Source: Vibrio sp. CB1-14
GTDB taxonomy: Bacteria; Pseudomonadota; Gammaproteobacteria; Enterobacterales; Vibrionaceae
Assembly (NCBI RefSeq): GCF_040412085.2
Contig: NZ_CP115920.1
Coordinates: 1,612,001-1,676,000, forward strand
Length of the DNA stretch: 64,000 nt
Reading direction: 5' to 3'
Notes under the pieces: generated by a model
The model's input: only the letters and a program-made list of their open reading frames with translations
Database searches by the model: none
What the model was told of the DNA's origin: nothing
Made by a program: the position numbers and the translations under genes
Shown: positions 23,798 to 41,627 of the stretch, piece by piece
Position numbering within the stretch: the stretch's first letter is position 1
Layout of the letters: each line of letters starts with the position of its first letter

Positions 23798-24985
23798 ATG
23801 GATCCCATTCTGGAAGTTAAGGGACTGTATAAAGTGTTTGGGGAGAACCCGGAAAGGGCATTCTCACTCATAGACAAAGAAGTTGATAAAGAAAGCATCT
23901 TTGAGCAGACAGGTCTAACCGTTGGCGTAAATGATGTGTCTCTTTCGATTAATGAAGGTGAGATCTTCGTCATCATGGGGCTTTCTGGCTCAGGCAAGTC
24001 TACCCTTGTTCGACTTCTTAACCGTTTGATCGAACCCACCAAAGGCAGTGTCTACCTAAAAGGTAAAGACATAGCGCATATCTCTGAAGAAGAGCTACGA
24101 GAAGTTCGCCGCAATAACATCTCGATGGTTTTTCAAAACTTTGCTCTTATGCCTCACATGACCGTCATTGAAAATGCGGCGTTTGGTCTGGAACTTGCTG
24201 GCGTCGAGTCTGATAAACGAAATCGTTCTGCATTGTCAGCGCTTGAACGCGTAGGTCTTGATACTTATGCTGAATCTTACCCTGACGAACTGTCTGGAGG
24301 TATGAAGCAGCGTGTCGGATTGGCTCGTGCACTGGCGTGTGACCCAGATATTCTACTAATGGACGAGGCATTTTCCGCTCTCGACCCTCTTATTCGTACT
24401 GAAATGCAAGACGAACTTATCCGTCTGCAGAACGATGACAAACGCACCATTGTATTTATTTCACATGACTTAGATGAAGCTATGCGCATTGGGGATCGTA
24501 TTGCCATCATGCAAAATGGTGATGTGGTACAAGTGGGCACCCCGGATGAAATCCTTCATAATCCAGCCAATGATTACGTGGAAGCCTTCTTTAGAGGTGT
24601 GAACGTAGCCAGCGTCCTGACCGCCAAAGACATTGCCCGTAAGAAACCTGCTGCTATGTTCAGAAAATCTGAACACGATGAGCCTGGTTCTGCAATGCAA
24701 CTTCTAATGGATCATGATCGTGATTTCGGCATTGTTGTCGATAAAGCGTCGAACTATTCAGGCATAGTGTCACTCGACTCATTGCGCTTAGCCTACAAAG
24801 AGCAGCGCTCTTTGGCGAGTGCGCAGCTTGAGGAATCGGTAACTCTTCAGCCGAATCAACCAGTGAATGATGTATTAGGCGTTGTGGCAAGCGTTCCATA
24901 CCCAGTTCCAGTGGTAGATGATATGGGCAATTATTTTGGTGTTATAACCAAGTCACGTCTATTACAAACACTGGATAAGGATTAG
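23798..24985 (+). CDS. proV: Glycine betaine/proline ABC importer ATPase
   Basis: 395 residues. The long N-terminal lead ([20 protein letters not shown]) before Walker A is typical of ProV/OpuAA. Walker A is GLSGSGKST, the signature [15 protein letters not shown], Walker [13 protein letters not shown]. The C-terminus (about 275-395) has paired CBS-like modules ([20 protein letters not shown], then [15 protein letters not shown]), which in this family sense ionic strength. It powers uptake of betaine and related compatible solutes under osmotic stress. First gene of proVWX, four bases from proW. Confidence 0.95.
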
Positions 24986-24989
24986 TCAT

Positions 24990-26108
24990 ATGTCATCTGA
25001 ACAAAACAATAACGATCCTTGGGTGCAGACAGCACAGCCAGCAAGTGATCCGTGGGCCGATACTTCACAATCTCAAAGCGACCCATGGGCGCAAGGCGGC
25101 GAAGTAGCCCCTGCGACCGAATGGCTTACATCAGAAGCTGTTGAAGAAAAGCAATTTGATGTGCTTAATCCTTTCCAGGATGCGGTATTGCCTCTAGATA
25201 ATTGGGTGGAATCTGGTTTGAACTGGCTGGTCGAGCATGGTAGGCCTGTATTTCAAGCCATTCGAGTTCCTATCGACTTTATCTTGATGTCATTTGAGAC
25301 TGCGCTGGTATCAACACCCGCGCCATTCATGCTGCTCATTTTATTCTTGTTAGCGTGGCAGTTCTCAAATCTGAAGCTCGGTGTATCAACTTTGGTATCA
25401 CTGATCTTTATCGGCTTAATTGGTGCTTGGTCTGAAGCTATGACCACGTTATCTCTAGTGCTTACTTCCGTATTCTTCTGTTTGCTTATAGGACTCCCGG
25501 TCGGGATATGGTTAGCGCGCAGTGAAACGGCTGCAAAGTTTATTCGACCGATTCTCGATGCTATGCAAACCACGCCAGCATTCGTGTATTTGGTACCTAT
25601 CGTTATGCTGTTTGGTATTGGTAACGTCCCAGGGGTAGTGGTGACGATAATCTTCGCTTTACCACCTGTTATACGATTAACCATTCTAGGTATCCAACAA
25701 GTGCCAGAAGACCTGATAGAAGCAGGTCACTCGTTTGGAGCGAGTAAAAAGCAAATGTTATATCGCATTCAATTACCTTTAGCATTGCCAACTATCATGG
25801 CCGGTGTAAACCAAACTCTGATGTTATCATTATCCATGGTAGTCATTGCCTCGATGATTGCAGTAGGCGGTTTGGGGCAAATGGTACTGCGTGGAATCGG
25901 CCGTCTTGATATGGGCTTAGCTGCTGTGGGCGGCTTAGGCATCGTTATTCTAGCCATTTTGCTTGACCGTATCACTCAGGTTCTTGGCGTCAATGCGGGT
26001 AACACTAAATCACGATGGTACCAGAGCGGACCAATCTCATACTTTTACAAACTTAAAACCAAAAACGTTATATCGAATCAATCTATTAGGAGAACGACCA
26101 ATGAGTAA
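24990..26108 (+). CDS. proW: Glycine betaine/proline ABC importer permease
   Basis: 372 residues. The N-terminus is a hydrophilic tail with three DPW repeats ([21 protein letters not shown]), comparable to the extra N-terminal tail of E. coli ProW. Then come the conserved [20 protein letters not shown] segment and the membrane domain, with the EAA loop [20 protein letters not shown]. It forms the channel with ProV as motor. A strong AGGAG site for proX lies inside its 3' end, and the gene overlaps proX by eight bases. Confidence 0.95.
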
Positions 26109-27108
26109 TTCATGGAAGAGTGTGCTGACTGCGAGTACATTGGCGACTATTACTATTGCAGGTCAAGCTGTTGCTGCAGCGTTACCAGGTGAAGGTGTGT
26201 CTATTCAGCCTGTACAATCGACAGTGGCAGAAGAAACGTTCCAAACTTCTATCGTAAACCGGGCTCTTGAAGAGCTTGGCTACGATGTTCAGCTAACTAA
26301 AGAAGTGGACTACAACGTTGCTTATACTTCTGTTGCTAAAGGTGATGCGACGTTTCTTGCTGTTGGCTGGTTCCCACTTCACGTTGATAAGTACAACATG
26401 TCCGGTGGTGATGATAAGTTTTACCGTGAAGGAGTGTACGTGAGCGGTGCGGCTCAAGGCTACCTAATCGATAAGAAGACCGCAGATAAATACAACATTA
26501 CCAATATTGCTCAGCTATCTGATCCAAAAATTGCTGCACTATTTGATGCGAACGGTGATGGTAAGGCCGATTTGACAGGCTGTAATCCTGGCTGGGGCTG
26601 TGAGTTAGTTATTGAAGAACAGTTAAGTGCGTATAAACTTAGCGATACCGTGACACATAATCAGGGCAACTATGCCGCTATTATCGCTGATACTATTTCA
26701 CGTTACAAAAAGGGTGACCCAGTGTTGTACTACACTTGGACTCCATATTGGGTGAGTGGTGTGCTAGTTCCAGGTAGAGACGTAGTATGGCTTGAAGTGC
26801 CATTCTCCGCACTTCCTGGTGACCGTAAAAGCGTTGATACCGCACTATCAAATGGCAAGAACTATGGGTTTGAAATGAATTCAATGCGCATAGTAGCCAA
26901 CAAAGAGTTCGCACAGAGCAACCCGGCGGCAGCTAAGCTATTTGAAATCATCAAGCTCAACATCAACGATGTGAGTGCTCAAAACATGATGATGAGTCAA
27001 GGTAAGGGCAGCCCTGCTGATATCGAAGCGCACGTAAACGGTTGGATCAAAGCGAATCAAAAACAGTTTGATGCTTGGGTAGCAGAAGCGAAAAAAGCAG
27101 CAATGTAA
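26101..27108 (+). CDS. proX: Glycine betaine/proline-binding periplasmic protein
   Basis: 335 residues from ATG 26101, chosen because TTAGGAGAACG precedes it and a normal signal peptide follows ([19 protein letters not shown]). The OpuAC-type binding protein shows the aromatic residues used to hold the quaternary ammonium group in this family: Trp in VGWFPLHVD, in NPGWGCE and in YYTWTPYW. It captures betaine or proline betaine for ProVW. Its segment [13 protein letters not shown] and SAYKLSD is echoed in the C-terminal domain of the 941-residue protein at 30282-33107. Confidence 0.95.
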
Positions 27109-27498: not shown

Positions 27499-28818
27499 AT
27501 GAATCGTTACGGCACCATACGATTATCAACATTTTCCCCCATTAGAACTCCGCTCAACTCTAACAGTGAGCTTCGCTCTTCATTAAGTAGTAAAGAGCAT
27601 CTACGTCTCAAACACAGACTAGAAAGAGTGTTTCATACACACTTTGAGCCCGTACAGCAGGTCAGGAATGACGGCTACAACAACATTGATTGTGACAATC
27701 ATCCTTACTTCTTTCAAGCGATGTACTCAGGTAGTGTTGACCTCATTCGAACCGATGAATACATATCATCAAGAAAATTATTCCCTTGGTGGAAAAAAGC
27801 ACGGCTGATTCGTAGTGATGTTCATTTTTTTGACGATACTGTAGGCGTATTGCATTTGGAAATCGATCTAAACATCGAAACCGATGAAGATGCTGAGTAT
27901 TTATCCCGTGGAGAGATAGATAGCGATCTGTCAGAATTGGCAAACATTGCCTATCAATACTCTCTTAGGCCAGCGTTCAACAAGATTGCAAAAACATTGA
28001 ACCTGACTAGCTACGACCATCTTATACAACCGGACAAGTTTAGGATATTCAACGACATCAGTTTTGAGCCCAACAAAAATGAGCACCAAGGAGTAATGTG
28101 GACGGGTCGCATGATATTTAGCCCTTTGGAACATTCGGATTCTTTGCTAAATATACTTCGCTCTTGGGTTGGGCTTGAGGAATCAGATGAGTTGGATGGG
28201 TATTATCTCGGATCCGGAAACATTCTTGTGCTCGATTATAAATCGGTCGAAGACTGGTACCGAGTTCAGCTCGTTTGCCAATGCTATAACGCCATACTCT
28301 ATCTTCTAAACACCAAGCTAAAACGGACCTATGCAGAGATAACTGAGCGTGATGAACTTCGTTCAGGAAGCCGCAGAGAGTTAAGTTCAACCCTAAGTAG
28401 AACTCAGCGTTCATTGGAGCATATTGAATTTTGTAGCCTTGAGTTCAAAGATGCTCGAATTGGCACTCAGTCCAGTCGTCGCAAACTAATGAACCATTTT
28501 TGTGAAGCCTGGAGCTTAGAAGAACTTCAGGAGCTCACAATTCAGAGAGCAAACCTTATTAGTATACGGATAGACGCTATACTTGGTGAGCAGCAAGCAA
28601 AAATCAATAGAACTGTTGAATACCTATTATCGGGTATTGGCTGTTTAGCTATTGTCGACCTCACCATTAGTCTGATTTCAGCCTCTGACAACTTAGAACA
28701 AGATGACATTCCTGGTGTGTTTGACGTATTTAGCTCTATTCCTCATGATGGCTCTGCGTGGATGTCGATTGCAATCGTCAGTTTTATCTTTCTCTACTTG
28801 TACAAACAAAGGAACTGA
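27499..28818 (+). CDS. Hypothetical protein with C-terminal membrane hairpin
   Basis: 439 residues; not recognised. The ATG follows TAGGAT. Residues 1-370 look soluble and mixed alpha/beta, with a charged helical stretch at about 290-375 (AEITERDELRSGSRRELSST and following). Two hydrophobic helices close the protein: YLLSGIGCLAIVDLTISLIS (about 377-396) and AWMSIAIVSFIFLYLY (about 419-434). A large cytoplasmic domain plus a helix and two C-terminal membrane segments is reminiscent of CorA/RMD1-like topology, but I see no GMN motif, so this is only a shape comparison. It is followed four bases later by a small gene, with which it forms an operon. It sits between proVWX and the betaine-binding-domain fusion gene. 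Confidence 0.7.
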   Translation: MNRYGTIRLSTFSPIRTPLNSNSELRSSLSSKEHLRLKHRLERVFHTHFEPVQQVRNDGYNNIDCDNHPYFFQAMYSGSVDLIRTDEYISSRKLFPWWKKARLIRSDVHFFDDTVGVLHLEIDLNIETDEDAEYLSRGEIDSDLSELANIAYQYSLRPAFNKIAKTLNLTSYDHLIQPDKFRIFNDISFEPNKNEHQGVMWTGRMIFSPLEHSDSLLNILRSWVGLEESDELDGYYLGSGNILVLDYKSVEDWYRVQLVCQCYNAILYLLNTKLKRTYAEITERDELRSGSRRELSSTLSRTQRSLEHIEFCSLEFKDARIGTQSSRRKLMNHFCEAWSLEELQELTIQRANLISIRIDAILGEQQAKINRTVEYLLSGIGCLAIVDLTISLISASDNLEQDDIPGVFDVFSSIPHDGSAWMSIAIVSFIFLYLYKQRN

Positions 28819-29599: not shown

Positions 29600-30160
29600 A
29601 TGAACATGCAAACATTCGATAAGACAGAGCAACAAAACCCACAAAACTTTATCGCACAAGCCGTGTTTGCCGTTGAAATGGTCGACGCAGGTGAGCCTAC
29701 GCAAAAGCAGAAAATGGCCAAGCAGCTCCTTGATACGCTGTTCCCGCTAGAGATCGGTTCACACGAAGACGTAGTGAGTTACGAAATCAACTACCGCCAC
29801 GTACAAGCCTTCTTCAAAAACGGCCAGCACAGCGGTTTACGCCACAACAAACACTTTGTTGCTTACACTGGTGATGAGTGCAACCCTGACAACATCTTGT
29901 TCCGCGACGAAAGTGGCACGCATGTAGAAATGACCATCGCCCGCAGCAAAGGTACAGGTTGTCTTGAACTGGTTGAAATTGATGATATCCAAATCGAAAC
30001 ATGCACGACATTTGGTGCATACAAAGAGATCGGATTACGTCACTGGGTTAGCTTGGTAAAAGGGGACGAAAAACGTCACCCATCGGCGAGTAATGAAGAT
30101 AAAGAATATGTGGCTAAAGGTGGTGATGATTACTGTTTGACCTTTAGTTACGCTTGTTGA
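29600..30160 (+). CDS. Conserved-looking hypothetical protein
   Basis: 186 residues, preceded by AAGGAATAG; soluble, no signal peptide. The C-terminal half is rich in short strands (KHFVAYTGDE, DNILFRDESGTHVEMTIARS, GCLELVEIDDIQIETCTTFG) and ends in DDYCLTFSYAC. I cannot assign it to a family. It is followed by a strong terminator, and the repeats upstream suggest that it is a regulated single-gene unit. Codon usage and the clean ribosome-binding site support a real gene. Confidence 0.65.
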   Translation: MNMQTFDKTEQQNPQNFIAQAVFAVEMVDAGEPTQKQKMAKQLLDTLFPLEIGSHEDVVSYEINYRHVQAFFKNGQHSGLRHNKHFVAYTGDECNPDNILFRDESGTHVEMTIARSKGTGCLELVEIDDIQIETCTTFGAYKEIGLRHWVSLVKGDEKRHPSASNEDKEYVAKGGDDYCLTFSYAC

Positions 30161-30281: not shown

Positions 30282-33107
30282 TTAGTTGCTGTCTGACAAA
30301 AGCTTGAACCCTGTCAACCACTCTAGAACGGTGTCTTGGTTTTTTTCTATCCACTTTTCCGCAACTGTATCGACCCTTCCACCTTCTTGAACCTCTGCAA
30401 GCATTTTAACTAAAGACTTATTACTGATGACGAAGTTGTTCATCAGCACTTCAAGAGCGGCTTGCTCTTTAACCAAATCACTACGATAAGCGATTTGAAT
30501 AGTACTCCTTGGCCAAGAGGTTCCTCTGTTTGGTTCGATTTGTTCGCGTTGAACAACTATATCTTGCCAAAGCGCGCTATTGTGGGGTTTTGACTCAATA
30601 AAGTGGACGTGCTGGTCCACAAATACGGCATCTGGATAGTAGCAAAAGAAAAGGCTTGGAACTTCATTTTGATTGTTCCTTGAATGCAACATTTGGAACA
30701 CTTCGCTATCAAAAATATGGTAATTGTAAGAGGTATCTAGGCCATAAGCACTTAAGCGCCTCTGTTCTATCTCTGTCGACGACCAGCTGTCTGCACCTAC
30801 CCAGATATCACCTTTACCATCACCGGTTAGATCGAAGCGAGCAATCATCTCTGGAGCGTTCAAATTATCCATAGTCAGTCGCGGGCTAGATTGGTGCCCA
30901 TAATCCGTATAACACAATCCTTGAGAACCATTGGTTGACTCACCTCCTAAAGATACAGAACCGAATGCTTTAACATAACGACGAACAAGGTTTGGATTAT
31001 TCTCAACCCAAAACTCTGGATGGATATCGACTAAACCTTTGTCCAAGTCCATTTCTTGGAATGCTTGTTGATTGGACACCGAACGAAGTGAGGCATCTAG
31101 CTCTGTATGCTGGTTTATGATTTTAGTGAGGATATGCCCCTTTATTTGCGCGCTTGGCCAGTCTAGTAGAGCTATGTTCACTTTTGTTTTAGAAGCAGGG
31201 TTGTTGGCCAACACCAACGGAGATGCTTCTATAGAACGCGTTTGTTCAAGAGAAGTGTAAAGAAATGCATAACCAAATCCACCAATTAAGAAAGTGAAGA
31301 TACTAAATATCCAGTAGCCCCCCTGTTTGTTTGCCCCAGCAATGGACTTTTCTTTTATCAACGAAGATATTATGGATTCTAGTTCAGAACTCCTTTTGTC
31401 ATCGACACCAAAACTAAGTTTCCCTTGAACATACCGTACTAAGTTAGTACACATGATGGCATGGTCAGGTCGGAGGGTAGTAAATTTATCACGTTCGAAA
31501 ATGATGAGTAGCAGATAAATCATCGATGTACCGACAATCAAGGCAAATAGACTTGAAGAAAGTGTTTCAGGTCGGAACAACAGTGAGAAGATAACATTGG
31601 TGCCTCCCAACAAAAACAGGATGACAAACTCTTCAGTCGGTAAGCGATCACTTTCCATTGTTTGTAGCTTATCCCCGACTTTAAATAAGCCGAGTAAATC
31701 ATCACGTGTTTCCGAGTTTTCCTGAGTATAGGAGAGCAGTTTGTATTTGAGGGTTTGGGTTCTCTTTTGCATTAACCGGAGTTCTTTTGACGACTTAAAG
31801 GCACGCAGGAAGCTAAAAAGATTTGTGTATGTATATTGTTTAAGTTCAGAAGGAAAGGGTTGAGTCGTTGTCACATTTTTATCGTTGTTTAGGCGCTCTA
31901 CAATACGCATGGCATATTCGCTAAACTCACCTAGTAAATTCTCTCGCTCCCTGTTTAATGCAGTCGTTCGCTCAAGTGCAAAAGTTGCAAGTAGCACAAA
32001 GAATACCGTAGAAACAGCTAGCAGGTCGTAGTAGTTGTCGATAGAGGCGGCTGGCGCGAAAAGAATCCAAACTCCGATAAAACAGACCGAAGCGAACAGA
32101 ATAAGTAGCGATGACTTAAGCGGATATTTCAAGACCAAGAATACGTTCGAGGCCACTATCAAAACAGACGCTACAGCTTCGTATTGATTAAGCAAACGGC
32201 CTTGCATGATCGCGAGGATAATTACAGCACCAACCGGCATCAAATACCATAATGCACTTATCGAAGCGTTATCCGCTTTGTATACAGATAAATCGTAAAT
32301 AAGGCTCCCAACCGCCAAAATAACCACACCAACAAACGAAAGAAGTAATAAGTTTATTGGGTCAGGATCAGGCACTTCTTCTCCTGAGAACATCAGTGCG
32401 ATGATAAGAAGAGGTGCCGCAATACTTCTTACTCCAGCTTCTGTCAGCAAGCCTCGCTTAAAACTACTTAAACGGAGCTTTTGGCAACTTGAGATTTCAC
32501 TCCACGCATCCATGCACTTCATCCGAAAATAACAGTTAACCGCCATCGCAATGCCACCAGCTAGTGCAAAACCAATCGTCTGTAACATCGGGCTATCAAG
32601 CAAAATCCAGTCGGCTAAGTCCATATTCGGCGCTGTCAGGACTATAAAACCACCAAAGGCAGTAGCAGGAAAAATGTAGTCGCTTATAGTGACTTTCCGC
32701 TTATCTCGCCTTAACGCTGTATCAATTAGGAAAAATAAAATCGGCCACGTCTCGAATATCAAAATAGCAATCACATCGAACTCTTTCGATGTACTTAAAG
32801 CTGCGTACAGTAACAGGTGGTTAGTACAAATCAGAAAACCAGAACAAAGTGTTGGAACCAGTAGTTTTGAGATATTTGAACGGTTATATATGTCACTTAA
32901 ACCCACTCTACTTTTGCCGAAAAACAGAAAGACAGTAAAAAGAATAATGCAGATCGCAGCAAATGAGTGAGCCACAGCAGCGACATAAAAAACATTACTT
33001 AGGTCGATTAGGTGGTTCACGACAGGTGGGTATAGCATCCACAAAAAAACTGCTGCTAACATGAGCATCACAGGGTGACGCAAAAATAAAATCAGTTTAG
33101 AACTCAC
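30282..33107 (-). CDS. DMT/EamA-like membrane module fused to a ProX/OpuAC-like binding domain
   Basis: 941 residues in one unbroken frame. Residues 13-326 hold about ten membrane helices with the drug/metabolite transporter look (AILIFETWPILFFLIDT, then ALWYLMPVGAVIILAI in the second half); two more helices follow (332-350, 360-378). Next is a charged, probably cytoplasmic helical region (380-490), a membrane hairpin (494-511, 517-537), a second cytoplasmic stretch and a last helix (597-617). Residues 640-941 are an OpuAC-type domain: KVNIALLDWPSA, then DLTGDGKGDIWVG and RLSAYGLD, matching [13 protein letters not shown] and LSAYKLSD of the ProX encoded at 26101-27108. By my count 15 helices would put this domain in the periplasm. 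Two of the three ligand-cage Trp positions have a Trp; the third seems replaced by Tyr. Role unknown: a compatible-solute transporter or a sensor are both possible. Confidence 0.8.
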   Translation of the reverse strand: MSSKLILFLRHPVMLMLAAVFLWMLYPPVVNHLIDLSNVFYVAAVAHSFAAICIILFTVFLFFGKSRVGLSDIYNRSNISKLLVPTLCSGFLICTNHLLLYAALSTSKEFDVIAILIFETWPILFFLIDTALRRDKRKVTISDYIFPATAFGGFIVLTAPNMDLADWILLDSPMLQTIGFALAGGIAMAVNCYFRMKCMDAWSEISSCQKLRLSSFKRGLLTEAGVRSIAAPLLIIALMFSGEEVPDPDPINLLLLSFVGVVILAVGSLIYDLSVYKADNASISALWYLMPVGAVIILAIMQGRLLNQYEAVASVLIVASNVFLVLKYPLKSSLLILFASVCFIGVWILFAPAASIDNYYDLLAVSTVFFVLLATFALERTTALNRERENLLGEFSEYAMRIVERLNNDKNVTTTQPFPSELKQYTYTNLFSFLRAFKSSKELRLMQKRTQTLKYKLLSYTQENSETRDDLLGLFKVGDKLQTMESDRLPTEEFVILFLLGGTNVIFSLLFRPETLSSSLFALIVGTSMIYLLLIIFERDKFTTLRPDHAIMCTNLVRYVQGKLSFGVDDKRSSELESIISSLIKEKSIAGANKQGGYWIFSIFTFLIGGFGYAFLYTSLEQTRSIEASPLVLANNPASKTKVNIALLDWPSAQIKGHILTKIINQHTELDASLRSVSNQQAFQEMDLDKGLVDIHPEFWVENNPNLVRRYVKAFGSVSLGGESTNGSQGLCYTDYGHQSSPRLTMDNLNAPEMIARFDLTGDGKGDIWVGADSWSSTEIEQRRLSAYGLDTSYNYHIFDSEVFQMLHSRNNQNEVPSLFFCYYPDAVFVDQHVHFIESKPHNSALWQDIVVQREQIEPNRGTSWPRSTIQIAYRSDLVKEQAALEVLMNNFVISNKSLVKMLAEVQEGGRVDTVAEKWIEKNQDTVLEWLTGFKLLSDSN

Positions 33108-33178
33108 TTATATGTGCCTTATTCGAATAATCCATTACTGAATGCCCTGTAAATATGTCGAGCCACTATTGTCAACTA

Positions 33179-33538: not shown

Positions 33539-33772
33539 CTATTCTTCACTACGATTGCTACTAATCAAGTGATTCGATGCTGCCTCAGCCAATAACGCAC
33601 CACCAATCACCAAAGTTTGGTAATAAGCAGGCACGAGAATAAGCATCCCAACAGTCAGCGTCATGATAATCAGCGCACCTACAAATGAACGCAGTACTTG
33701 GCCTTCACCGCCACCAATCGCAGTACCACCAATTAACACCACAAGAATAGCCGTTAATGAAGCTAAAGCCTA
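33539..33772 (-). pseudogene. C-terminal stump of an RbsC-type sugar ABC permease
   Basis: The frame is open from 33772, right after a stop codon at 33773-33775, and starts inside the end of the ATPase gene. It encodes AILVVLIGGTAIGGGEGQ, then RSFVGALIIMTLTVGMLIL and a final helix. That is the conserved C-terminus of ribose/autoinducer-2-type permeases (BPD_transp_2), about the last quarter of such a protein. No start codon with a ribosome-binding site and no other part of the gene is present. It belongs to a different ABC class from the MalFG-type genes next to it, so it is a remnant left by a deletion or insertion. Confidence 0.7.
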
Positions 33773-34848
33773 AGCGTAGTCTGTGAATCGAAAATTGAGC
33801 AGTTGTTTGCATCAACATTGACCGTAACTTGATCGCCAGCAGCAATGCTCTCTTCCGAGGTGATTCGATGAGACAACGTATGCTGGTCGCTAAATTTCGT
33901 CCAGACTAAGGTATCGGATCCCATTGGTTCAACGAGTTCAACTTGACCGACTAGAGCGTTATTGGCGGCATTTTCTTTCACCATTAAGTGCTCTGGTCTA
34001 ATACCAAGTGTGACATTCATTTTATCCTCAGGAGGCTGCGAAAATGGATAGTCAGTGACATCGACGAGTAAACCGTGAGAGTTGAACGTGATTGCCTGTT
34101 GAGTCACTTCCAACTGCCCTTCGATGCAGTTCATCGCAGGCGAACCCAGGAACGTAGCAACAAACAGGTTTTGTGGCTTGTTGTAGACATTGTGCGGGGT
34201 ATCCAGCTGTTGGATGATACCGTCTTTCATTACCGCGATACGATCCGCCAGCGTCAGTGCTTCAATTTGGTCATGAGTGACATAGATCATGGTGGCATGG
34301 AGCGTTTTGTGAAGCTTTTTGATTTCCAGTCTTAGCTCAGCTCGAAGCTTTGCATCTAGATTCGACAGAGGTTCATCAAATAGATAGATATCGGCATCAC
34401 GAACCAAGGCACGACCAATTGCCACACGTTGGCGTTGTCCACCTGAAAGGGCGGAAGGCTTACGCTTTAATAGTGGTTCGAGCTGGAGCAATTTAGCGGC
34501 CCACGCCACTTTCTTATTGATCGTCTCTTTGTCGACACCCGCAATACGAAGGCCAAATGACATGTTCTTTTCAACACTCATGGTTGGGTATAGCGCGTAG
34601 GACTGAAACACCATGCCAATCCCGCGATCTTTAGGATCCGCCCACGTCACATCTTTGCCATCAAAGTGTATCGAACCACCAGAGGTATCAATCAGCCCAC
34701 CAATGGCATTCAATAGAGTGGATTTGCCACAACCGGAAGGACCAAGGAGTACTAAAAACTCTCCGTCATTGATGGCAAGGTCTAGTTGGTTGACGATCTT
34801 GATTGAGTCGTAGCTGATATCAAGTTTGCTAATATTTACGATTCCCAT
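33763..34848 (-). CDS. Sugar ABC importer ATPase (MalK/UgpC/MsmX type)
   Basis: 361 residues from ATG 34848, which follows AAGGATAACGCT; 14 extra residues would be added by an in-frame upstream start within the permease gene, which is unlikely. Walker A GPSGCGKST, signature LSGGQRQRVAIGRAL, Walker B IYLFDEPLSNLD. The C-terminal TOBE-type domain (LGIRPEHLMV, then GSDTLVWTKF) is that of MalK/UgpC proteins, which may serve more than one permease. It ends the leftward operon with the two permeases and binding protein. The last codons overlap the start of the RbsC-like stump, so the 3' end may have been altered by the rearrangement there. Confidence 0.9.
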   Translation of the reverse strand: MGIVNISKLDISYDSIKIVNQLDLAINDGEFLVLLGPSGCGKSTLLNAIGGLIDTSGGSIHFDGKDVTWADPKDRGIGMVFQSYALYPTMSVEKNMSFGLRIAGVDKETINKKVAWAAKLLQLEPLLKRKPSALSGGQRQRVAIGRALVRDADIYLFDEPLSNLDAKLRAELRLEIKKLHKTLHATMIYVTHDQIEALTLADRIAVMKDGIIQQLDTPHNVYNKPQNLFVATFLGSPAMNCIEGQLEVTQQAITFNSHGLLVDVTDYPFSQPPEDKMNVTLGIRPEHLMVKENAANNALVGQVELVEPMGSDTLVWTKFSDQHTLSHRITSEESIAAGDQVTVNVDANNCSIFDSQTTLRL

Positions 34849-34852
34849 AGCG

Positions 34853-35761
34853 TTATCCTTTAACTGCGCCAGAGGCGATACCACGCACAAACCAGCGTCC
34901 TGATGCGACGTAAATGATCAGTGGTACGAGTGATGTAAGAATAGTGGCGGCCATGTTCACGTTATAGGCGCGCTCACCAGTGGTGGTGTTGACGATGTTG
35001 TTCAGTTGAACCGTCATTGGAAGGTTGTCGTTGCCCGCAAAAACCAAACCAATTAAGAAATCGTTCCAGATATTAGTCACCTGCATGATCACCGCAACGA
35101 TGATGATGGGCACTGACATAGGTAGCATGATGGTGAAGAACACTTTGAAAAATCCGGCGCCGTCGATACGAGCGGCATTAAACAGCTCCATTGGCAACGT
35201 ACTGTAGTAGTTTCTAAATAGTAGCGTCATGATCGGCATGCCGAAGATAACGTGTGAAACCACAACACCCGTAAGCGTTCCATAGATCCCGATATCGGCG
35301 TAAACGCGAATCAGCGGGTAAATAAACACCTGATAAGGGATAAATGCCCCAAGCAAAAGACACGCAAACAGTAAGTTAGCGCCTTTTATTTTCCAAAACG
35401 AAAGGGTATAGCCATTGATGGCGCCAAACAGCACCGAGATGACCACGCTAGGGATTAAGATACGGACGGAGTTCCAAAACCCCACTTGCAGACCACTACA
35501 ATCAAGGCCAGTACATGCGCTGCTCCAAGCTACTTTCCAAGCGTCCAACGTGAAGTTTTGTGGTAGGGCAAAGATTGAAGACAGACGAATCTCTTCGAGT
35601 TCTTTAAAAGAAGTGACTAGCATGACGTAGAGCGGCAGCAAGAAAAACAGGGCGGTAATGGTCAGAAAACCATAGACACCAATGCGTCCCCAACGGGCTT
35701 TAACAGACATGACGCGTTTGCTGGGTGTCGCACCCATTGTAGGTGAAAGAGTCGCAGACAT
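34853..35761 (-). CDS. Sugar ABC importer permease (MalG type)
   Basis: 302 residues with six membrane helices. N-terminal YGFLTITALFFLLPLYVMLV and SFK segment, and the EAA loop ELFNAARIDGAGFFKVFFTI, identify the MalG/LacG-like carbohydrate permease subfamily. It pairs with the MalF-like protein encoded just upstream (three-base gap). The stop is five bases from the ATPase start, so the genes are probably translated together. Confidence 0.92.
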   Translation of the reverse strand: MSATLSPTMGATPSKRVMSVKARWGRIGVYGFLTITALFFLLPLYVMLVTSFKELEEIRLSSIFALPQNFTLDAWKVAWSSACTGLDCSGLQVGFWNSVRILIPSVVISVLFGAINGYTLSFWKIKGANLLFACLLLGAFIPYQVFIYPLIRVYADIGIYGTLTGVVVSHVIFGMPIMTLLFRNYYSTLPMELFNAARIDGAGFFKVFFTIMLPMSVPIIIVAVIMQVTNIWNDFLIGLVFAGNDNLPMTVQLNNIVNTTTGERAYNVNMAATILTSLVPLIIYVASGRWFVRGIASGAVKG

Positions 35762-35764
35762 AAG

Positions 35765-36658
35765 TTACCTACCTTGTTTCTTGATATAGTTCGAGTAAAT
35801 AAATGGCGTAATCAAGCACAAGACCGTGGTCAACATAACCGTTGAAGCTGCGGTGGCAAGGCCGATATTGGCGCGCTCGAATAGGTTATCCATAATGAAC
35901 TTTGCTGGAACTTCACTGGCCACGCCAGGGCCGCCACCTGTCATCGCGACTACAACGTCATACATTTTGATGATGCTAATCGACAGCAATACAACGGTTG
36001 TAATAATCATTGGGCGCAACATAGGTAAAATAATGCTGATGTAGACACGCCAAGTGGGAATACCGTCTATTTTTGTCGCTTTCCAGAGATCGTCATCAAT
36101 GCCACGAAGACCTGCGAGGAGCAGCGCCATGACCAGTCCGGCACCTTGCCACACTGCGGCAATGACAACGGTGTACAGCACCATATTCGGATCGACAATC
36201 CAGTCAAATGTGAACGATTCCCAACCAAGAGATTGCATGGTGTTTTGAATGCCTAACTGAGGGTTAAATATCCACTGCCAAACCAAACCCGTCACGATAA
36301 ACGACATTGCATAAGGGAATAAAAAAACGGTTCTGAAGAAGCTTTCGGCTTTAATTTTCTGGTCAATAAACACAGAAAGTAGAAATCCGAGTACAAAGCA
36401 AATCGCTAAGAAGAGAAAGGCGATGATCAGTAGGTTTTCTAGCGAGACGATCCAACGGGATGTGCTAAAGAGTCGCTCATATTGAGCAAAGCCAACGAAA
36501 TCGTTTCTTGGCAACATTCTTGAGCTAGAAAACGAAAGACGTACTGACCAAACCATCGTACCCATATAGGCAATCATGACCGTTAATGCCATGGGTAGAG
36601 CAGCCACATAGGCTAGGGCGTTACGTTTTAGGTGTCTTTGCACCGCAGCAACATTCAT
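35765..36658 (-). CDS. Sugar ABC importer permease (MalF type)
   Basis: 297 residues with six membrane helices; the N-terminal LAYVAALPMALTVMIAYMGT, the middle RTVFLFPYAMSFIVTGLVWQ and the EAA loop LWKATKIDGIPTWRVYISII are those of the MalF/UgpA group of carbohydrate permeases. It lacks the extra MalF periplasmic loop, like most family members. It lies between the binding protein gene (80-base gap) and the MalG-type gene. Confidence 0.92.
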   Translation of the reverse strand: MNVAAVQRHLKRNALAYVAALPMALTVMIAYMGTMVWSVRLSFSSSRMLPRNDFVGFAQYERLFSTSRWIVSLENLLIIAFLFLAICFVLGFLLSVFIDQKIKAESFFRTVFLFPYAMSFIVTGLVWQWIFNPQLGIQNTMQSLGWESFTFDWIVDPNMVLYTVVIAAVWQGAGLVMALLLAGLRGIDDDLWKATKIDGIPTWRVYISIILPMLRPMIITTVVLLSISIIKMYDVVVAMTGGGPGVASEVPAKFIMDNLFERANIGLATAASTVMLTTVLCLITPFIYSNYIKKQGR

Positions 36659-36738
36659 GGATGCACTCCAAAGTAAGTCTTAATGAGGAAGCATTTCATT
36701 GAATGGCGCACCGAGGTGCGCCGTTAACAACAGTGAGA

Positions 36739-37965
36739 TTAATCGCGAAGTGCTTGAGTGAAGATGGCGACTGCCTTATCCGTCGTCATGTTCTGTGTGT
36801 TCCACACCTCAGTGACGGCGTCTTTTAAAGAGCCATACAGGTACTCTTCCATTAGCATTGAGCCATCTGGGACTTGACGCTCAGCCACTTTGAGGATGGC
36901 TGCGCCTTTTTGAGCACAGATATCCATGTTAGACACATCAATATCGGTACGAACTGGCACTGAGCCTTTCAGGTTATTGAATTTTACCTGTGTTTCTGGG
37001 CTCAGCATCGATTCCACCAGTTTTTTCTGAGCTGCGACTTGTGCGCCATCGTCCGTTTTAGGGAAGACAAAGACATCCCCGCCGACAATATAGAGTGAGT
37101 CGTCACCGAGACCTGGGAAACAGCCGTAGTCTTGACCAGGGATCTTGTTAGCTTGAGTGAACTCACCTTTTGCCCAGTCACCCATAATCTGCATACCCGC
37201 TTTGTCGTTGATGACAAGGCTCGTTGTGTCATTCCAGTTACGACCTGGTGAACCTGCATCGACGTAAGGCTTAAGTTTCAGGAAGGTATCGACCACCTGT
37301 TTGAATTCGTCGGAATTTAGTGTTTTTGCGTCGCGCTTACCTAGTGCATCTAGGTAAAGTTGCTTGCCGCCGACATTACTTAGAACCGTTGCGAATAGCA
37401 GGTTCTCTTGCCAATTCTGACCACCAAGCGCAAGTGGGATGTAGCCTGCAGATTTGAGTTTATCTAGGCTCGAGAACAGTTCGTCCACCGTTTGTGGTTC
37501 TTTATCAATGCCCGCTTTTTCAAATGCATCTTTCGAGTACCAGAACCAACCAGGCATATGAATGTTGACCGGAGCGGCATAGAAGTGTCCGTCCACTTTA
37601 ATGGCGTTTAGAGTTGGTTCAGGCAGGATCTGTTCCCAATTGTTGGCCGTCGCTACGTCATCGATGTTGTTCAGCATCCCTTCAGCAATCATTTCATGGT
37701 ATTGCTGAGAGGTATTGAATAGCGCCGCTGTGGTCGGAGAGCCACCTAGCATACGGTTCATCGCTGCACTTCGGGCATTAGAACCTCCAGCAACCGCACT
37801 GTCTTTCCAAGTGCCGCCTTGCGCCTCAAATGATTCTGCTAACACTTTGATAGCTGCTGATTCGCCGCCGGAAGTCCACCAGTGCATAACTTCGGCTTCT
37901 TCCTTGGCAATAACCGGAGATGCGATAAGTCCAATGATCGTAGCGAGCGTAAGTTTCTTCATCAT
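36739..37965 (-). CDS. Sugar ABC importer substrate-binding protein (family 1)
   Basis: 408 residues from ATG 37965, preceded by AAAGGTATCCCC; the frame continues upstream but without a signal peptide or site. The signal peptide is MMKKLTLATIIGLIASPVIA. The mature start EEAEVMHWWTSGGESAAI is typical of family-1 sugar-binding proteins. The protein is the first gene of the importer operon. Because the divergent side encodes a LacI regulator and a GH94 phosphorylase, the likely ligand is the disaccharide that the phosphorylase splits, perhaps cellobionate (inference). Confidence 0.9.
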   Translation of the reverse strand: MMKKLTLATIIGLIASPVIAKEEAEVMHWWTSGGESAAIKVLAESFEAQGGTWKDSAVAGGSNARSAAMNRMLGGSPTTAALFNTSQQYHEMIAEGMLNNIDDVATANNWEQILPEPTLNAIKVDGHFYAAPVNIHMPGWFWYSKDAFEKAGIDKEPQTVDELFSSLDKLKSAGYIPLALGGQNWQENLLFATVLSNVGGKQLYLDALGKRDAKTLNSDEFKQVVDTFLKLKPYVDAGSPGRNWNDTTSLVINDKAGMQIMGDWAKGEFTQANKIPGQDYGCFPGLGDDSLYIVGGDVFVFPKTDDGAQVAAQKKLVESMLSPETQVKFNNLKGSVPVRTDIDVSNMDICAQKGAAILKVAERQVPDGSMLMEEYLYGSLKDAVTEVWNTQNMTTDKAVAIFTQALRD

Positions 37966-38021
37966 GGGGATACCTTTTGTTTTCGTTATTGTGCCTGTTT
38001 TTGTAATTGGATTGGTCGTCA

Positions 38022-38035
38022 TGGAATGGATTCCA
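38022..38035. promoter_or_regulatory. LacI-family operator candidate
   Basis: TGGAATGGATTCCA fits the general LacI-family pattern TGNAANCGNTTNCA except for one central base. It lies about 57 bases upstream of the binding protein start (37965), a place where repression of the importer operon would be expected. Confidence 0.6.
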
Positions 38036-38101
38036 ATTATTTATTTTATAACGCTCATTTCCGTATTGTTCTAGAGGTTTTTTGATTGATTTATAAACAT
38101 G

Positions 38102-38115
38102 TGTTACCGGTCACA
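38102..38115. promoter_or_regulatory. Second LacI-family operator candidate
   Basis: TGTTACCGGTCACA is a near-perfect palindrome with the CG centre usual for LacI-family sites. It lies midway between the importer operon and the lacI-type gene, so it could serve both or loop with the first site. Confidence 0.45.
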
Positions 38116-38221
38116 TTCCATGTAAAAAGCGCAATTTTTAGCAAAATTGGCTGTATAAGTGCCCGATATCGCTTTAGTATTAACGATAAGTCATCAATTT
38201 AACCAACGTGAGTAAAACCTA

Positions 38222-39226
38222 ATGGCAACAATAAAAGACGTGGCAAAACTCGCAGGTGTGGGTGTTGGAACTGTTTCCAGATACTTGTCTGGGAGCGCGT
38301 CAGTCTCATCCGCTTCTGGGGAAAAAGTAGCGTCGGCGATGGCGGAGTTAAATTATCGGCCAAACAGTATGGCGCGCTCACTATCGTCGAAGCGCTCAAA
38401 CATTATTGGTCTGTGGGTGCCTTCTTTTTCGGGCTCCTTTCATCGAAAGATGCTGCAAACCATCGAGCGAGAGCTACGAAAACGCGATAAGCATATTATT
38501 CTCGCCAATGCCGAGGATGCGAAAACGGATAAAGAGCGCATCGGCTGCCTAGATTACTTAATTGAACGTGACTGTGATGGAATTCTGATGTCGTGTCCGG
38601 AGCTTTCTGTTGTCGAGCTGGCACGGATTGAGGCGCGTTATCCAAAAGTGGTGTTTATAAACAGAGACATTGAAGAGCTGATTGATAAGACCTTTTGTGT
38701 AAATCACTACCAAGGAGGCCGATTAGCAGCAGAACACCTTATAGAGTTAGGGCACAAAGAGATTGCCATCGTGACAGGTCGAATGAATGCCCAAGATGCA
38801 CTCAGCCGACACCAAGGGTTTATTGATCGATTAGCGGAAGAGGGTATCGAGGTTGATGCCGACCTCATTGAGCATGGTGGTTACAGCTTTGAGCTTGGTA
38901 AAGAAGCCACGCAGCGCTTAATAGACAAAAAGCGCCCATTTACTGCGCTTTTCTGTGGAAATGACAACAGCGCAATGGCTGCGATTGCCACTTTCAACAA
39001 ACAGGGTATTGCGGTTGGCAAACAGATGTCGGTTGTCGGTTATGATGACATTGATATCTCTCAATATACGTCGCCAGCCATGACGAGTGTGCGCATTCCT
39101 TTAGAAGATATCTCTATCAATGCCTGTCACCAGCTCCTTAACTTATGCTACGGGGAATCTCTCCCTATCCAAACACGTTTTGAGCCGACACTGTCGGTTC
39201 GAGAATCAACTCACTCAGTAAAATAA
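38222..39226 (+). CDS. LacI-family transcriptional regulator
   Basis: 334 residues. The N-terminal DNA-binding domain reads ATIKDVAKLAGVGVGTVSRY (residues 2-21), with the hinge region NYRPNSMARSLSSKRSN; the periplasmic-binding-like effector domain follows (IIGLWVPSFSGSFHRKML onward, with AFLCGND-type and SVVGYDDIDIS segments). Divergent from the sugar importer operon and 34 bases upstream of the GH94 gene, so it is probably their local repressor, responding to the imported sugar. Candidate operators lie in the 256-base divergent region. Confidence 0.92.
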   Translation: MATIKDVAKLAGVGVGTVSRYLSGSASVSSASGEKVASAMAELNYRPNSMARSLSSKRSNIIGLWVPSFSGSFHRKMLQTIERELRKRDKHIILANAEDAKTDKERIGCLDYLIERDCDGILMSCPELSVVELARIEARYPKVVFINRDIEELIDKTFCVNHYQGGRLAAEHLIELGHKEIAIVTGRMNAQDALSRHQGFIDRLAEEGIEVDADLIEHGGYSFELGKEATQRLIDKKRPFTALFCGNDNSAMAAIATFNKQGIAVGKQMSVVGYDDIDISQYTSPAMTSVRIPLEDISINACHQLLNLCYGESLPIQTRFEPTLSVRESTHSVK

Positions 39227-39260
39227 TCGCAAATAAAGTTGTACTTCAGAGGGAGATAGA

Positions 39261-41627
39261 ATGACAAACTACATTGAAGCTGGCGCACGATTTTCGCTAG
39301 ACAGCCCAACGTTGGTGCCAAATTCAGCGGGATACTTGTGGAACAAACATATGATGATTCACATGAATTGTCAGGGCTACGCTGTCGCTCAATATATGAA
39401 TCCAGAGCCGAAAAAATACGCCCATAATCCGAACATGGCGGCGACGAGTTTCATGCAGCCGGAGCAACCTTATTTTGCACACCATCCGGGACGTTTTTTC
39501 TATCTTCGTGATGACGAAAGTGGGGAGCTATTCTCTGCGCCATTTGCGCCTATCAAAGCCGAACTAGACAGCTTTGAGTTTCAACCTGGCCTCAGTGATA
39601 TTAAGTGGAAGATCAAGCACTCGGATCTTGAACTGGATATGACACTGACACTCAGCCCGGACTTGGCTGCAGAGCTATGGCATGTCAAGGTGCGTAATAG
39701 TGACAGCCAATCAAGAAAGGTGTCACTGGTTCCTTATTTCCCAGTAGGATACATGTCCTGGATGAACATGGGAGCACACTTTGATGATGAGCTTAACGCC
39801 GTGGTGTGTACGTCTATTACTCCCTACCAAAAACTTGAAGATTACGCGAAGAACAAGCATCTAAAAGACATCACGTACTTGGCATCCGATGTTAAGCCAA
39901 CGTATTTTGAGACCAGTTTGCCTCGATTTGAGGGGCAGGGTGGCCTTCACAACCCAACAGGACTGAGTGATAAACGCAGTCTAAGTGACCAACCAAGTCA
40001 CTACGAAATGCCAGCCTGTATTATGCAGTTTGAACTAGACCTACAGCCGGGAGATGAGAGCGAGTACAACTTTGTTTTTGGCCCTGCGCTGGATAAGCAG
40101 GAGATTGCCGAAACGCTTGACCTCACCTTAAGCGACAATAAAGCGCATGCAGCAGCGGATTACGCTAGCTACATTGAGTCGGGCAAAGGGGTTTTAAACA
40201 TATCAACGCCGGATAAGATCTTTGATCAGTTCGTCAACAACTGGCTACCCAGACAGGTGTTCTACCATGGCGATACTCATCGTCTAACTACCGATCCGCA
40301 AACGCGTAACTACCTGCAAGATGGGATGGGAATGGCCTATGTTAATCATGAAGCGACAAAACAGGTCATCCTTACGTCACTGAGCCAGCAAAAGCGCGAT
40401 GGTGAAATGCCTGATGGCATTTTGTTAACTCCGGAAGCAACGCTGAAATACATCAATCAAATACCGCACACGGATCATTCTGTCTGGCTTACCTTGATCC
40501 TTGAGTCTTACATTAACGAGAGTAATGACTGGGCGATTCTCGATGAACGACTGACGTGGCATGATTCTGATGACAAGAGCACCGTCTTAGAACACATGAA
40601 CATGGCAATGCGCCATATGTGCGGCGCACGTGACGAACGTGGTTTGCCTTATATTGCTCAAGGTGACTGGTGTGACCCTATGAATATGGTAGGGCCAAAG
40701 GGTAAAGGCGTTTCCGGCTGGCTCACTCAAGCACTCAGTTTTGCACTGCAGTCTTGGATACGTTTATCTCGAGATGTGAATGACGCTAACGAGTTGGATA
40801 GGTTCCAACACACCGTTGATGAGCTCGTTGTGATTGCTGATGAGTATCTATGGAAGGGAGATTGGTACGCGCGAGGAATTACCGATGATGGGGTAACATT
40901 CGGAGTGCCAGAGGATAAAGAAGGGCGTATTTTCTTAAATACCCAAAGCTGGGCATTCCTTGCCAATATGCCCAATGCACTGCAAACCGAGAGAATGTTA
41001 AAGGCGGTGGATGAGCAACTGGATACCCCATACGGCGTGATGCTGTGTGCACCAGCATTTACTGCAATGCGTGAAGATGTGGGTCGCGTAACACAAAAAT
41101 GGCCAGGCTCAGGAGAGAATGGCTCCGTCTACAACCATGCCGCTGCGTTTTATGCAGCAAGTATGTACCATATTAATCAGTCAGATAGAGCCTTTAGCAC
41201 CTTGCGTAAAATGCTGGCCGATCCAGAGTGTGAGTCTTTTGTTCAAAGAGGACAGCTGCCACTTTACATTCCAAACTACTATCGCGGTGCGTACTATCAA
41301 TATCCTGACACTGCGGGCCGTTCGAGTAACCTCTTCAATACCGGTACAGGGGCTTGGTTCTATCGTCTAGTTATCGAAAATCTATTCGGCCTTAAGGGCT
41401 GTCGGGAAGGGCTGGTGATTTCCCCTCAACTGCCTACTGAGTGGCAAAAGGCGAGAGTTAAGCGTGAATTTAGAGGCGCGATACTTGACGTTGAATATCA
41501 ATTGGTGAGTGATAAAACCCAGGCTTGTATTGAAGTTGATGGAGTGGTGCTATCGAGTAACTTGATCGAGGATATTGCTGCCGGTAAGCATTATTCAGTG
41601 GTGGTTAACTATCACAATGGTGGGTGA
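39261..41627 (+). CDS. GH94 glycoside phosphorylase, probably cellobionic acid type
   Basis: 788 residues; AGAGGGAGATAG precedes the ATG. The N-terminal beta-sandwich domain (about 1-280) and helical barrel match GH94 phosphorylases, which split a beta-linked disaccharide with phosphate to alpha-glucose 1-phosphate and a second sugar. The catalytic acid should be Asp472 in QGDWCDPMNMVG. That motif has Cys-Asp-Pro where cellobiose and chitobiose phosphorylases have Asn-Asp, and with the length and GKGVSGWLT segment this recalls cellobionic acid phosphorylases of Xanthomonas and Saccharophagus. No signal peptide, so it is cytoplasmic and acts after the importer. The exact substrate is an inference from motif memory. 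Confidence 0.78.
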   Translation: MTNYIEAGARFSLDSPTLVPNSAGYLWNKHMMIHMNCQGYAVAQYMNPEPKKYAHNPNMAATSFMQPEQPYFAHHPGRFFYLRDDESGELFSAPFAPIKAELDSFEFQPGLSDIKWKIKHSDLELDMTLTLSPDLAAELWHVKVRNSDSQSRKVSLVPYFPVGYMSWMNMGAHFDDELNAVVCTSITPYQKLEDYAKNKHLKDITYLASDVKPTYFETSLPRFEGQGGLHNPTGLSDKRSLSDQPSHYEMPACIMQFELDLQPGDESEYNFVFGPALDKQEIAETLDLTLSDNKAHAAADYASYIESGKGVLNISTPDKIFDQFVNNWLPRQVFYHGDTHRLTTDPQTRNYLQDGMGMAYVNHEATKQVILTSLSQQKRDGEMPDGILLTPEATLKYINQIPHTDHSVWLTLILESYINESNDWAILDERLTWHDSDDKSTVLEHMNMAMRHMCGARDERGLPYIAQGDWCDPMNMVGPKGKGVSGWLTQALSFALQSWIRLSRDVNDANELDRFQHTVDELVVIADEYLWKGDWYARGITDDGVTFGVPEDKEGRIFLNTQSWAFLANMPNALQTERMLKAVDEQLDTPYGVMLCAPAFTAMREDVGRVTQKWPGSGENGSVYNHAAAFYAASMYHINQSDRAFSTLRKMLADPECESFVQRGQLPLYIPNYYRGAYYQYPDTAGRSSNLFNTGTGAWFYRLVIENLFGLKGCREGLVISPQLPTEWQKARVKREFRGAILDVEYQLVSDKTQACIEVDGVVLSSNLIEDIAAGKHYSVVVNYHNGG

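Follow-up and report, generated by a model that had tools for sequence, protein, structure and literature searches.

A conserved fusion of a DMT-fold module with an OpuAC-type binding domain in Vibrio sp. CB1-14, a candidate single-chain osmolyte carrier

Binding-protein-dependent uptake is known for ATP-binding cassette (ABC), tripartite ATP-independent periplasmic (TRAP) and tripartite tricarboxylate transporter (TTT) systems, the last two being secondary carriers that receive their substrate from a binding protein in the periplasm. The gene described here lies in a stretch of 64,000 nucleotides of Vibrio sp. CB1-14 (contig NZ_CP115920.1, positions 1,612,001 to 1,676,000; the whole stretch is called the window below). 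It encodes a 941-residue protein in which a drug/metabolite transporter (DMT) fold, a middle region with a weak resemblance to bestrophin channels and an OpuAC-type solute-binding domain follow one another. The two folds, the conserved ligand cage, the topology, the conservation of the fusion and the solitary position of the gene were shown by computation. Our tentatively favoured reading, to which we give somewhat less than an even chance, is that of a single-chain, binding-protein-dependent secondary carrier for an osmolyte of the quaternary-ammonium type; for this protein we infer transport itself, its direction, the ligand, the energy source and the oligomeric state. The parts are of known kinds, while their combination is new: no description of a DMT/bestrophin-like/OpuAC fusion was found among the papers listed from open-licence literature. 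The one paper there that has both EamA and OpuAC deals with them as parts of separate systems (PMC4570203).

Binding domain, carrier module and topology

A single unbroken frame of 941 codons occupies positions 30282-33107, as originally predicted, but on the minus strand, to which all coordinates of the gene and its parts refer; the plus strand is there full of stops. The C-terminal part (residues 640-935, 30303..31190) was identified as an OpuAC-type solute-binding domain by profile, with PF04069 matching residues 642-922 (E 1.8e-24; 87.2 bits against a Pfam cut-off of 21.2), and by the structure model, in which an OpuAC fold was found at about residues 640-934, in agreement with the domain first proposed for residues 640-941. 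All 29 members of the family described below matched OpuAC (E up to 10). The claimed alignment with the ProX of the window (26101-27108) was recovered over 78 residues with 27% identity and an E value of 2e-5, running through GDGK-D, W and SAY-L. The ProX equivalog NF008334 scored 34.8 bits against an NCBIfam cut-off of 215.

For lactococcal OpuAC, a Trp prism with W377 and W484 has been described (PMC2861598), and for DmpX a pocket of Trp35, Trp84, Trp152 and Trp202 plus Tyr200 and others (PMC10030565). In the fused domain, W650 (31158..31160) aligned with DmpX Trp35, and W700 (31008..31010) with DmpX Trp84 and W377 of Lactococcus lactis, both in 29/29 family rows, while W775 (30783..30785; 28/28) aligned with the Trp at position 140 of ProX chain 1r9l. 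In the segment F821-C822-Y823 (30639..30647), F821 and Y823 are each kept in 28/28 rows, and Y823 aligned with the last cage Trp (L. lactis W484). By sequence alignment, the aromatic cage W650/W700/W775/Y823 is thus invariant in all rows with a residue there. That the third cage Trp is a Tyr had been noticed at the outset and is seen in Y823, but a further Trp (W650) is also kept. A Tyr at the last cage place was likewise found in nine aligned separate OpuAC relatives.

F821 stands at the motif position of DmpX Tyr200, the register of Tyr200/Trp202 being set by motif and not by a printed alignment; in TmoX a Phe likewise lies two places before its Trp. According to published mutant data, a change of Tyr200 to Ala or Phe abolished binding of dimethylsulfoniopropionate (DMSP) by DmpX (PMC10030565). 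Because F821 takes, by motif, the place of the Tyr which DmpX needs, DmpX-like DMSP binding is not predicted for the fused domain, and its sequence leads us to predict a ligand of quaternary-ammonium or amine-oxide type, not DMSP. SPOA0231, an OpuAC protein of Ruegeria pomeroyi, showed no DMSP binding in calorimetry, though one of its close relatives is located in a dddD cluster (PMC10030565), and another source tabulates it under proline (PMC9038784). Judging from gene position, the R. pomeroyi plasmid match H1 (28% identity) probably encodes it.

The N-terminal module (residues 1-328, 32124..33107) showed in the structure model a DMT fold with ten helices at about residues 12-328, and its best structural match was the choline importer LicB. 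EamA (PF00892) was matched with an E value of 5.3e-6 and 27.2 bits, just below the curated cut-off of 28.2, and a DMT fold is therefore claimed here, but not EamA membership. In total, 26 of the 29 family members matched EamA (E up to 10; best 5.3e-6), and PF00892 is listed in the database annotation of the identical protein P0003 and of P0005 and P0008. Of the EamA/DMT look ascribed to the first 380 or so residues, the DMT fold was borne out for residues 12-328, but the segment beginning at about residue 354 appears to be more than extra helices. A single-sequence search of the Protein Data Bank (PDB) with the 941-residue protein (P0002) gave nothing below E 0.049.

Helix limits were set by hand from the structure model and hydropathy. 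With these limits, lysine plus arginine, counted across the family, show the alternation that an inside N terminus and 15 helices would give, in keeping with the 15 helices and periplasmic binding domain first counted. Small outside loops average 0 to 1.0 such residues; inside loops average 1.0 to 15.6, apart from the loop at 274-280 with 0.2. The alternation therefore places the OpuAC domain on the periplasmic side, with some 20 residues between it and the membrane. Residues 598-639 (31191..31316) form, by hydropathy and charge counts, transmembrane helix 15 (TM15) and a periplasmic linker of about 20 residues, which has low confidence in the structure model.

Conservation was highest in TM11-12 (0.79), followed by TM13-14 (0.73), TM15 (0.69) and the carrier core (0.64), so that the membrane parts are better conserved than the OpuAC domain (0.51) or the cytoplasmic parts (0.45 and 0.29); the linker showed 0.35. 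These values bear on an alternative in which the protein would be a transceptor, sensing external compatible solutes and signalling via its cytoplasmic helices to a partner. Several invariant residues do lie in its two helical parts on the cytoplasmic side (about 110 and 55 residues), and a periplasmic binding domain beside a transmembrane helix is found in many receptors; the lack of recurring transport genes in the 10 genome contexts treated below would also suit a sensor. However, the cytoplasmic parts are poorly conserved while conservation is concentrated in the carrier core and TM11-14, no known output domain was found in the chain, and no specific regulator recurs beside the gene in those contexts. 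We consider a transceptor improbable.

The middle region and bestrophins

Residues 329-597 (31317..32123) comprise TM11-14 and cytoplasmic helices. The original prediction saw here extra helices and a cytoplasmic region, a description that was incomplete, as residues 354-566 or so look bestrophin-like by a weak match, which widens the possible mechanisms. Bestrophins (KpBest, VCCN1, BEST1) were the top fold matches of this segment, and its four helices and cytoplasmic bundle come in the same order as in bestrophins. Together with weak matches to PF14023 (Bestrophin-like), this makes bestrophin channels the proteins that the segment most resembles, a likeness that is suggestive only.

A sequence match above threshold between bestrophins and the middle part was absent. 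PF14023 reached at best 21.8 bits against a Pfam cut-off of 32, and PF01062 (Bestrophin) gave no match in the family proteins. PF14023 was shown by six of the nine proteins tested (all except P0030, P0028 and P0016) and matched in 15 of the 29 family members with a best E value of 3.9e-4. Since DOG1, a family that looks like a chance match, equals this best value (3.4e-4) in three of the 29, the count for PF14023 is more telling than its best E value. Comparison of the middle region with a PF14023 set by hhalign gave a probability of 4.5 and a single-comparison E value of 0.009, against 0.081 for a reversed template, 0.16 for a reversed query and 0.037 for the DMT part; among 100 block-permuted PF14023 controls, none reached the local score and five the global score. 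PF14023 had been matched in 17 of 120 genomes, and the comparison set was drawn from 19 of its 25 places. With 13 canonical bestrophins, nine permuted controls reached the local and 62 the global score, the OpuAC part scored slightly above the middle region (19.6 versus 18.8), and no significant profile match to the middle region was obtained; bestrophins against PF14023, taken as a yardstick, scored 41.7. The genome search with PF01062 matched nowhere, controls included, and is therefore uninformative. The idea that the middle part occurs elsewhere as a module was rejected: profile A5 found only the present genome among 339 of the class (E 0.001).

V/I368, L372 and F376 show no variation other than V/I in 28/28 rows, and have the spacing of I62, I66 and F70 of KpBest, which form its pore neck. 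These residues, the leading place of bestrophins among the structural matches with the same order of four helices and bundle, and the peak of conservation in TM11-12 all favour a channel or release valve gated by solute or osmotically. TM11-14 would then assemble into an oligomeric pore, the OpuAC domain would control when it opens, and the DMT part would be an accessory or a second route. Such a channel is in our judgement unlikely. Similarly low is the chance we give to a three-in-one osmolyte machine, an oligomer, possibly pentameric, with a bestrophin-type core, in which each chain would have its own DMT carrier and tethered betaine-type binding domain, and capture would be coupled to the gating of a central pore as well as to secondary transport. 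If true, it would be a new class of binding-protein-dependent transporter. Should the middle part be genuinely related to bestrophins, these would be linked to bacterial osmolyte handling.

Distribution, descent and gene neighbourhood

The homologue search scored no more than the 7996 candidates with the most shared words and could see proteins of about 518-1647 amino acids (aa) only. It gave 29 proteins including the query; 25 of the 28 others have full length (916-976 aa), the shorter three measuring 840, 773 and 554 aa. Named homologues belong to Shewanella, Alteromonas, Corallincola, Marinobacter and Thalassospira, and members are entered in databases as hypothetical protein, glycine betaine ABC transporter substrate-binding protein or DMT-like permease. 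The fusion is thus conserved, and homologues without the C-terminal domain are the exception, with few short carrier-only relatives. An annotation or assembly artefact was ruled out by the 25 full-length homologues and by the trees of the two parts, which share their main clades when compared by eye.

In overlapping genome samples, a full-length gene was found in one of 37 genomes of the own genus (own included), four of 129 and three of 59 genomes of two other genera, six of 394 drawn from the order, one of 369 of the class (the own genome, with OpuAC-only matches in eight others) and two of 398 of the phylum. This patchy distribution points to gain by transfer or to many losses. On plasmids, 14 records matched, all only in the OpuAC part, and no match was found in phages.

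The fused OpuAC domains form one group in the tree (100/100), apart from 10 ABC binding proteins, and the carrier-part tree recovers, by eye, the same main clades; this congruence fits one fusion event followed by joint descent. A search with a 335-aa carrier-only protein gave eight proteins including the query. Four carrier-only relatives of 333-347 aa (P0036, P0037, P0039 and P0040, one of them from Vreelandella rituensis) have neither middle nor OpuAC part and lie outside the fusion clade, while three short proteins inside it (P0032, P0034, P0035) may be fragments. A carrier that first stood alone and was then fused would agree with the midpoint-rooted tree, where the four lie outside, but on long branches and with weak forks. 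The same relatives, which do without OpuAC, speak for a DMT part that exports or flips a different substrate, with OpuAC as anchor or regulator only, and many DMT proteins are exporters. But they are few and outside the fusion clade, and the invariant cage residues suggest that the OpuAC domain probably still binds a ligand; we regard this exporter as very unlikely.

Ten genome contexts were compared, namely this genome and nine others, with L082 covered by less than 1 kb on one side. Recurrence of a specific neighbour was not seen: only two loose neighbour groups (ABC ATPases and SDR enzymes) occur in three contexts, and six neighbour pairs (23-41% identity) in two. In the window, 3.2 kb separate the 3' end of the fusion gene from the end of proX, which lies on the opposite strand; this is close to the 3 kb first given for proVWX. 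Another OpuAC gene nearby was found only in this window among the 10 contexts, other osmolyte genes not having been searched by family. A link to nearby osmolyte genes, and with it one to proVWX, was not borne out, and with no recurring neighbour the closeness to proVWX is local and not a family feature.

The gene runs from a GTG start (33107-33105) to a stop at 30284-30282; several homologues begin at the same position or a few residues away, and AAGG, a possible ribosome-binding site read from the sequence, lies nine bases before the GTG (33117..33120). Its window neighbours proVWX and three further frames all run on the plus strand, while 0.66 kb upstream of it lies a sugar-type ABC set (33763-38022, minus strand); this set and proVW (23798-26108, plus strand) each have their own binding protein. 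After proVWX comes a 439-aa frame (27499-28818, plus strand) with a hydrophobic C-terminal end and no Pfam family above cut-off. A 186-aa protein (29600-30160, plus strand) matched NCBIfam PRK08951 (malate synthase), but its sole Pfam domain is the insertion domain of malate synthase G. Facing the sugar ABC set, on the plus strand, are a LacI-type regulator and a GH94 phosphorylase, and the whole (33763-41627) looks like a locus for oligosaccharide uptake and phosphorolysis. In a 644-aa TRAP protein (47671-49605, minus strand), the DctM match starts at residue 122, so about 120 residues precede the domain.

The separate OpuAC proteins closest to the fused domain (L012, L015, L018, L019, L022, L088) are followed by frames resembling ABC ATPases by eye. 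Some 7 kb away in L022 a frame resembles, by eye, sulfoacetaldehyde acetyltransferase, and in L088 the OpuAC operon adjoins a trimethylamine methyltransferase family gene.

Proposed mechanism and comparison with known systems

In the favoured carrier mechanism, the periplasmic OpuAC domain would trap an osmolyte of quaternary-ammonium type (glycine betaine, choline, trimethylamine N-oxide or similar). Held by the short linker and TM15, it would pass the osmolyte to the LicB-like DMT carrier of the same chain, which would move it across the membrane without ATP. The bestrophin-like TM11-14 may hold several chains together or give a coupled path, for example for an anion. A self-contained carrier explains most of the findings, because there is no output domain and no recurring partner gene. 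The original prediction left the choice between carrier and sensor: a DMT carrier and a periplasmic OpuAC domain with an altered cage do stand in one chain, and the carrier is favoured on account of the strong conservation of the membrane core and of a chain in which no output domain for signalling was found.

Several points weigh against this mechanism. DMT carriers are not known to use binding proteins, and the four carrier-only relatives indicate that the carrier may not need a binding domain. Four extra helices separate the carrier and OpuAC modules, and the whole-chain model (predicted template modelling score 0.45) does not reveal how they contact each other. Among PDB sequences, profiles made from the carrier part gave one chance-like match and no DMT structure, and the top rank of LicB may partly reflect what is solved, since few bacterial DMT structures besides it are available. 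A sensor or a channel would be equally compatible with a lone gene.

If the carrier reading is true, a DMT carrier to which a binding domain is tethered would add another kind of binding-protein-dependent uptake, and would offer a clean single-chain system to study how a binding protein can drive a secondary carrier. Concrete predictions follow for the cage residues, for a ligand other than DMSP and for the oligomeric state.

Among known systems, the OpuAC binding proteins of ABC operons (ProX, TmoX, DmpX, SPOA0231 and relatives) have the fold and most cage residues in common with the fused domain, but they are separate chains, followed in annotated examples (L087, L088) by ABC ATPase and permease genes. 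OpuA of Lactococcus lactis (PDB 7ahd) is an ATP-driven ABC importer with a fused OpuAC, whereas the search of the 941-residue chain gave neither an ABC permease nor an ATPase domain; the chain is thus not an importer of the OpuA type. Pneumococcal LicB (PDB 7paf, 7b0k), a DMT protein, shares 15% identity with the carrier module, and its chain (278 residues in 7paf), unlike the 941-residue fusion, is without a bestrophin-like or binding part. The nearest functional parallel, if the carrier reading is true, would be the TRAP and tripartite tricarboxylate transporters, which are built from other families of membrane and binding proteins.
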